Shown in pieces: positions 20,277 through 40,011 of a stretch of DNA of 40,011 bases. How positions within the stretch are numbered: the first letter of the stretch is position 1; each line of letters starts with the position of its first letter. The translations under genes were made by a program, and so were the position numbers. The DNA lies in NCBI GenBank assembly GCA_028275745.1, contig JAPWUB010000003.1, positions 1 to 40,011 of the forward strand. Direction: 5' to 3'. This DNA comes from Desulfurococcales archaeon. Its GTDB lineage: Archaea; Thermoproteota; Thermoprotei_A; Sulfolobales; Ignisphaeraceae. Under the pieces are notes generated by a model. That model had not been told where the DNA came from. It did no database searches and saw only the letters and a program-made list of their open reading frames with translations.

Positions 20277-20379
20277 GCCGCGGTAGTATAGCCCGGTCAA
20301 GTATGCGGGCCTCTCGAGCCCGTGACGCCAGCTAATTGGAATGGCGCGGGAGACCCGGGTTCAAATCCCGGCCGCGGCA
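20277..20379 (+). tRNA. tRNA-Glu(CTC) with a 28-nt intron in the variable loop (about 20325..20352)
   Basis: gccgcgg/ccgcggc acceptor; arm CGGGC-CTCTCGA-GCCCG; bulge-helix-bulge CCCG[TGA]CGCC...GGCG CGGG[AGA]; splicing leaves a TGAC variable loop as in the tRNA-Gln here; TATA-like gcttttaaga upstream. Confidence 0.94.
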
Positions 20380-21069: not shown

Positions 21070-21132
21070 GGTTATCAGCGCTTTGGCCCCACATCATGAC
21101 ATCAGAGTTTAGCGTGGTCATCACACTTTGTT
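21070..21132 (-). ncRNA. C/D box sRNA candidate; D guide predicted to target U34 of tRNA-Gln(UUG)
   Basis: Minus strand: GTGATGA(C)-ccacgctaaact-CTGA(D')-tgtc-ATGATGT(C')-ggggccaaagcg-CTGA(D); both guides exactly 12 nt; intergenic; TATA-like ccttttaatg upstream. Confidence 0.85.
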
Positions 21133-35324: not shown

Positions 35325-35392
35325 TGATTATCAGTCCTGCGCGAGCCTATCATTCCTTTGTAGTCAACCCTTTCGAGCCTCATCACTGTAAG
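35325..35392 (-). ncRNA. C/D box sRNA candidate; D' guide predicted to target U34 of tRNA-Glu(UUC)
   Basis: Minus strand: GTGATGA(C)-ggctcgaaaggg-TTGA(D')-ctacaaagga-ATGATAG(C')-gctcgcgcagga-CTGA(D); both guides exactly 12 nt; C box 16 nt past the tRNA-Asn 3' end. Confidence 0.77.
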
Positions 35393-35402
35393 AAGGAATA
35401 GG

Positions 35403-35475
35403 CGCCGGGGGGAGGATTCGAACCTCCGACCACGGGGTTAACAGCCCCGCGCTCTACCAGCTGAGCTACCCCGGC
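35403..35475 (-). tRNA. tRNA-Asn(GTT), CCA not encoded
   Basis: Reverse complement gccggggtagctcagctggtagagcgcggggctgttaaccccgtggtcggaggttcgaatcctccccccggcg; loop CTGTTAA. Confidence 0.95.
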
Positions 35476-36794: not shown

Positions 36795-36862
36795 AGTGTT
36801 GATCAGACTCTGGCGTCTTCCTCATCCTGGGCTCAGCGGTAATACCACTCATCATCTGGCTA
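36795..36862 (-). ncRNA. C/D box sRNA candidate; D' guide predicted to target the 16S rRNA 530 loop
   Basis: Minus strand: ATGATGA(C)-gtggtattaccg-CTGA(D')-gcccagg-ATGAGGA(C')-agacgccagagt-CTGA(D); both guides exactly 12 nt; D' guide complementary to CGGUAAUACCA. Confidence 0.87.

Positions 36863-39549: not shown

Positions 39550-40011
<462 letters not shown>

Follow-up and report, generated by a model that had tools for sequence, protein, structure and literature searches.

The window analysed here, a stretch of 40,011 nucleotides from an archaeon of the Ignisphaeraceae, carries on its minus strand an element that is very probably a double-guide archaeal C/D box sRNA, predicted from its sequence to direct 2'-O-methylation of the wobble uridine U34 of tRNA-Glu(UUC) and of G47 of tRNA-Leu. 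That the element is not a chance arrangement of boxes is settled by conservation: a sequence model of the family (E <= 0.001) finds it in 139 of 147 Thermoprotei genomes, in 62 of 62 genera by the tool's tally.

Structure of the sRNA gene

The gene and its parts are as follows.

35325-35392, minus strand: C/D box sRNA gene, placed by its boxes and by the sequence-model match at 35331-35386
35380-35386, minus strand: box C, GTGATGA, read directly from the sequence
35368-35379, minus strand: D' guide, 12 nt, ggctcgaaaggg / GGCTCGAAAGGG, complement of tRNA-Glu(UUC) positions 31-41, with U34 at N+5
35364-35367, minus strand: box D', TTGA, read directly; its position is conserved in homologs
35354-35363, minus strand: spacer, ctacaaagga, read directly
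35347-35353, minus strand: box C', ATGATAG, read directly; its TGA core is conserved in homologs
35335-35346, minus strand: D guide, 12 nt, gctcgcgcagga / GCTCGCGCAGGA, pairing with CCUGCGUGGGU of all tRNA-Leu, with G47 at N+5
35331-35334, minus strand: box D, CTGA, read directly

Every box proposed in the original prediction is present in the minus-strand sequence as it was described there, and the order C, D' guide, D', C', D guide, D is complete within 35331-35386. As in other archaeal C/D sRNAs, boxes C (RUGAUGA) and D (CUGA) stand near the ends and C' and D' are internal, the two guides of 12 nt each fit the usual length of about 10-12 nt, and the fifth base from the box falls, in both guides, on a defined tRNA base (U34 of tRNA-Glu(UUC) and G47 of tRNA-Leu). 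The family model matches the window at 35331-35386 on the minus strand with an E-value of 1.6e-14, a figure to be read with the window's own sequence being one of those from which the model was built. A search of Rfam returned no family above its gathering cut-off, the best being sR5 with 14.8 bits vs 40; a promoter and terminator scan gave no match either, its models being bacterial and not meaningful for archaea.

Across the homologs, complementarity between the sequences flanking boxes C and D averaged 2.15 bp, vs 1.43 bp after shuffling (p <= 0.0005), and was almost nil in the window copy; this is consistent with the terminal stem expected of a kink-turn, a stem that appears weak in the window. 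The proteins fibrillarin, Nop5 and L7Ae were searched for, and found, in G009, a complete Ignisphaera-like congener; the window's own genome is 75.5% complete (1.37 Mb). A separate C/D sRNA candidate was also seen in the window at 36803-36855 on the minus strand, with the layout ATGATGA GTGGTATTACCG CTGA GCCCAGG ATGAGGA AGACGCCAGAGT CTGA.

The D' guide and U34 of tRNA-Glu(UUC)

The tRNA-Glu(UUC) of the same genome, which lies on another contig (G000:C57), contains CCTTTCGAGCC, a perfect 11-nt complement of the D' guide, as had been predicted before this tRNA was at hand. Its anticodon arm reads CGGGC-CTTTCGA-GCCCG, and the pairing comprises 11 contiguous Watson-Crick pairs over positions 31-41, which places U34 at N+5; position 30 (N+1), opposite the guide base adjoining box D', is unpaired. 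Over the paired stretch tRNA-Glu(CUC) and tRNA-Asp(GUC) are identical to tRNA-Glu(UUC) save at base 34, so that the base discriminating among the three is the very base predicted to be methylated. The first of these two is located in the window, where the original prediction had placed it and had pointed to its difference at base 34.

20277-20379, plus strand: tRNA-Glu(CUC), non-target isoacceptor, differing at base 34

An insert of about 27 nt, probably a non-canonical intron, follows the anticodon arm of this gene and is absent from the G009 copy.

The D' guides of 24 homologs were ranked against 6830 twelve-base windows taken from the tRNAs of the window's own genome and from the 16S and 23S of a congener (5S, SRP and RNase P RNAs lie outside this set), and tRNA-Glu(UUC) at U34 came first. 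By our own arithmetic, about 0.002 exact matches of a given 11-nt guide are expected by chance in some 8 kb of tRNA and rRNA.

Among 23 distinct D' guides, drawn from homologs that were pulled by sequence patterns and giving per-position counts biased by that choice, N3, N4, N5, N9 and N10 are always in Watson-Crick pairs with tRNA-Glu, N1 and N12 drift, and the base facing U34 is A in every one. The support for the D' pairing comes from conservation and not from compensatory change, because the arm of tRNA-Glu hardly varies. Internal boxes and guides are kept in homologs across the class, with some D' and D boxes degenerate (CGGA, CCGA), which agrees with the expectation of the original prediction. 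Taken at the level of sequence, both the sRNA and tRNA-Glu(UUC) U34 as its predicted target are well supported.

The D guide and G47 of tRNA-Leu

The original prediction had assigned no target to the D guide. In the same ranking it comes first on GCCTGCGTGGGT, which joins the 3' side of the variable arm to the 5' T-stem of tRNA-Leu, and its fifth base meets the G that immediately precedes C48 (position 47 in our own count). All 18 genomes checked have this stretch among their tRNA genes, some of them in a slightly different form. The pairing includes at least two G-U pairs in Ignisphaera, while in L097 and L105 the guide ACCCACGCAGG is a full Watson-Crick match to the tRNA-Leu of the same genomes. 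In the 24 homologs the guide changes almost solely between G and A opposite U and between C and T opposite G, N+1 being free. In a set of 40 distinct D guides, likewise pulled by sequence patterns that bias the per-position counts, Watson-Crick pairing with tRNA-Leu is invariable at N4-N6, and N8-N10 shift solely between Watson-Crick and G-U. A compensatory change is seen in Thermofilales, whose tRNA-Leu reads CCTGCCCGGG and whose guide reads CCCGGGCAAG: at N7 the target has gone from G to C and the guide from C to G, with one mismatch gained at N3. The Thermofilaceae-like L123 and L128 retain a mismatch at N7. From these pairings, G47 of tRNA-Leu is the probable target of the D guide.

Other sites were considered for this guide and rejected. 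The match near the 3' end of 23S that the original prediction had mentioned (CCTGCGCG / CCUGCGCG, at 39558-39570 on the minus strand) does not hold as a site: it lies immediately beyond the region matched by the rRNA model and has no counterpart in G009. The sequence of tRNA-Arg(GCG) does not fit in the register, and tRNA-Ser, the second best, has a mismatch at N4, beside the methylation site.

In archaea, rRNA is the substrate of most C/D guides, and the two halves of a double guide are usually aimed at neighbouring rRNA sites (PMC7994747), so a C/D sRNA with its real targets in rRNA or in another RNA, to which the tRNA complementarity would be incidental, has to be weighed. We consider it very unlikely. 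No sense-strand site equal to the tRNA sites exists in the complete 16S and 23S of three genomes (G004, G002 and G058), and the close matches, CCCTTTCGGGCC/T, sit on the antisense strand of 23S; for either guide the top rank goes to a tRNA site, and the D guide tracks the changes of tRNA-Leu.

Conservation and gene neighbourhood

The near-universal occurrence of the family in Thermoprotei implies a selected function. BLAST matches to the sRNA were obtained in 24 of 60 relatives. An exact 18-base pattern run over GTDB retrieved 54 stretches, mostly from Thermoproteota and some titled Geothermarchaeota or Nitrososphaeria; a handful have bacterial titles, in line with the roughly eight matches expected by chance. 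Both guides are carried by nearly all of 40 further members read by eye, with some exceptions.

Directly upstream of the sRNA, on the same strand, lies a tRNA gene.

35401-35475, minus strand: tRNA-Asn(GUU), upstream of the sRNA and probably co-transcribed with it, in an order conserved in 14 of 24 homologs

Its annotated end is separated from box C by 14 nt. In those 14 homologs, which belong to the window's genus and its family, tRNA-Asn stands about 10-70 nt ahead of the sRNA, and at the more distant homologs it was not seen beside it. A shared tRNA-Asn-sRNA precursor is likely, because the order is conserved and tRNA-sRNA dicistrons are known in other archaea.

Lineages with altered D' guides

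In a few lineages the D' guide departs from the usual one. That of G047 (homolog L333), GGCTCGGAAGG, is an exact complement of the arm CCTTCCGAGCC of the genome's own tRNA-Gly(UCC) and could match the usual tRNA-Glu(UUC) arm solely through a G-U; no intact tRNA-Glu(UUC) arm was found among the tRNAs listed for this genome. In G032 (family f6, homolog L311) the guide GGCTTTCAAGG fits the arm CCTTGAGAGCC of its own tRNA-Ser(UGA) with one G-U, and not its own tRNA-Glu. The guide of G132 and G135, GGCTCTAAAGG, is one mismatch away from both Glu and Ser. Mismatches at N7 occur in some lineages, namely f9/g45 (GGCTCTAAAGG) and G177 (GGCTCAAAAGG). Judged from these complements, L333 and L311 may be cases of natural retargeting at U34, to tRNA-Gly(UCC) and tRNA-Ser(UGA), respectively. 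The altered guides could represent either drift among tRNAs sharing the arm CCUU...AGCC, always at U34, or paralogs.

The mismatched or switched guides of G132, G135, G177 and f6 are also what one would see if the tRNA-Glu half were partly relaxed, as in a retired or drifting guide whose family survives by its D guide. Such a retirement is, in our estimate, extremely unlikely: most lineages keep the ten core bases of the D' guide unaltered, and four Geothermarchaeota- or Nitrososphaeria-like members (L099, L109, L136 and L141) keep the tRNA-Glu guide despite a wholly different D guide.

Guides to U34 in the genus

In the complete genome G009, 2554 sites combine a good C-type box with a D-type box 10-14 nt further on; these were compared with tRNAs, asking for complementarity over N2-N10 with at most one G-U and a Watson-Crick pair at N5. 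Six distinct sites place N5 at position 34, those for Ala(UGC), Val(UAC), Gln(UUG), Glu(UUC), Arg(UCU) and Lys(UUU), and all six fall on U34. The 17 other anticodon-arm registers between 26 and 43 give seven sites in all, mostly of 9 nt with a G-U; at this mean of 0.41 per register, the Poisson probability of six or more is about 4e-6 by our own arithmetic. The Lys, Val, Gln and Arg guides are flanked by the full double C/D layout, and 29 of 60 relatives have the Lys guide, among them the window's own genome and all the other genus members searched. The guides beyond that to tRNA-Glu are located as follows.

G009:C1 379588, minus strand: guide to U34 of tRNA-Ala(UGC)
G009:C1 177597, plus strand: guide to U34 of tRNA-Val(UAC)
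G009:C1 1184749, minus strand: guide to U34 of tRNA-Arg(UCU)
G009:C1 1102794, minus strand: guide to U34 of tRNA-Lys(UUU)
G000:C121:15027-15048, plus strand: Lys guide copy of the window's own genome (L388)
21075-21124 of the window, minus strand: second C/D sRNA candidate, guide to U34 of tRNA-Gln(UUG), a gene separate from the sRNA at 35325-35392

The last of these has the layout GTGATGA CCACGCTAAACT CTGA TGTC ATGATGT GGGGCCAAAGCG CTGA, and its D guide, complementary over 11 nt to tRNA-Gln(UUG), has U34 at N+5, the register shared with the Glu guide, to which attention had already been drawn. In G009, strong C/D sites matching many tRNAs at once were observed at G009:C1 1142543 and 1829060 (minus strand) and at 1595564, 901108 and 1669254 (plus strand); they concern the surroundings of G10, position 50, the D-loop of tRNA-Gly and position 44 of tRNA-Leu.

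This regularity of register also bears on whether the sRNA methylates at all. Its pairing with the two tRNAs, Glu and Leu, could be that of a chaperone or an antisense binder, for example ordering their folding or holding a precursor; to pair there, an archaeal C/D sRNP has to open the anticodon stem, and conservation speaks for pairing and not for catalysis. Nevertheless the fifth base is exactly U34, six different guides of G009 share this register, and A always stands opposite U34 in the 23 listed D' guides, whereas a mere binder has no need of a fixed distance between helix and box. Binding without methylation thus seems highly improbable to us, and we keep the methylation guide as the preferred interpretation.

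On a broader scale, we give an even chance to the hypothesis that Ignisphaera, and probably other Thermoprotei, would possess a C/D guide programme for Um34 on a large share of the U34 tRNAs (Glu, Gln, Lys, Arg-UCU, Ala and Val, 6 of 13 in one complete genome), with C34 and G34 isoacceptors largely spared and with a Glu guide able to switch among tRNAs of similar arm.

Proposed mechanism

The following scheme builds on anatomy, complementarity, register, conservation, pairing-preserving changes and the proteins encoded in a close relative, from which we infer expression, processing, methylation and a physiological benefit. The sRNA would most likely be transcribed with the upstream tRNA-Asn and freed by tRNA 3' processing, and L7Ae, Nop5 and fibrillarin would bind it at the C/D and C'/D' motifs. 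The D' guide would pair with positions 31-41 of tRNA-Glu(UUC) and lead to 2'-O-methylation of the wobble U34, tRNA-Glu(CUC) and tRNA-Asp being excluded by their difference at that very base. The D guide would anneal to tRNA-Leu across the variable arm's 3' side and the 5' T-stem, leading to methylation of G47 in its isoacceptors. Um34 would likely lock the wobble sugar in C3'-endo at high temperature for the reading of GAA and GAG, and Gm47 would stiffen the elbow of this long-arm tRNA.

Comparison with known guides

The mechanism is that of an ordinary archaeal C/D guide, and wobble guides, G47 of tRNA-Leu and tRNA-linked sRNA genes each have a precedent. A C/D guide for U34 and G18 of tRNA-Gln(UUG) was predicted in S. 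acidocaldarius (Ziesche et al. 2004, as cited in the text of PMC7668247), and Um34 of this tRNA is among the observations by mass spectrometry given in that text. Like that guide, the sRNA described here is a C/D sRNA acting on a wobble uridine, and the candidate at 21075-21124, in the same register, is its probable counterpart; unlike it, the sRNA at 35325-35392 is predicted to target tRNA-Glu(UUC) and, by its second guide, tRNA-Leu. It likewise resembles the other known guides to the first anticodon base, but those serve other tRNAs and one lies inside a tRNA intron, whereas the present gene is downstream of a tRNA. The text of the S. acidocaldarius tRNA survey, to which its Table 2 is external, makes no mention of Um34 in tRNA-Glu(UUC) (PMC7668247). 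In the open papers searched, a set with the main Pyrobaculum compilation (Lui et al. 2018) outside it, U34 of tRNA-Glu(UUC) was not named as a C/D target; the RNA-seq study of seven species by Dennis et al. (2015) saw tRNA complementarity, with 'data not compiled'.

For the D guide, G47 of tRNA-Leu(UAA) in P. furiosus is a C/D prediction (snoRNAdb) that went undetected there by mass spectrometry, according to the text of PMC7668247. It is the same tRNA and, in our own numbering, the same base; however, that prediction concerns one isoacceptor, while the site of the window's D guide is common to all tRNA-Leu. Dicistronic genes of tRNAs and C/D sRNAs are described for tRNA-Val in N. equitans (PMC3491384) and for tRNA-Ser in I. 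hospitalis and tRNA-Pro in T. tenax (PMC7994747). As in these, the sRNA lies directly 3' of a tRNA and its 5' end would probably derive from tRNA 3' processing, but the partner is tRNA-Asn and the linkage is found mainly in the window's genus and family.

The conservation of the sRNA is unexpectedly deep, and a U34-wide programme may lie behind it.

Biological meaning

Few bases in biology are as heavily modified as U34 of tRNA-Glu, which receives its 5- and 2-substituents from Elp3 and the thiolation enzymes. A 2'-O-methylation directed by a guide RNA at this base would add a separate, isoacceptor-specific layer. One guide RNA would moreover link two tRNAs, in contrast to the idle second half with which tRNA guides have been described in a review (PMC7994747). 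The prediction lends itself to a clean in vitro test, because three natural tRNAs differ solely at the methylated base. Finally, it offers named candidate sites for the orphan mono-methylations reported in crenarchaeal tRNAs.
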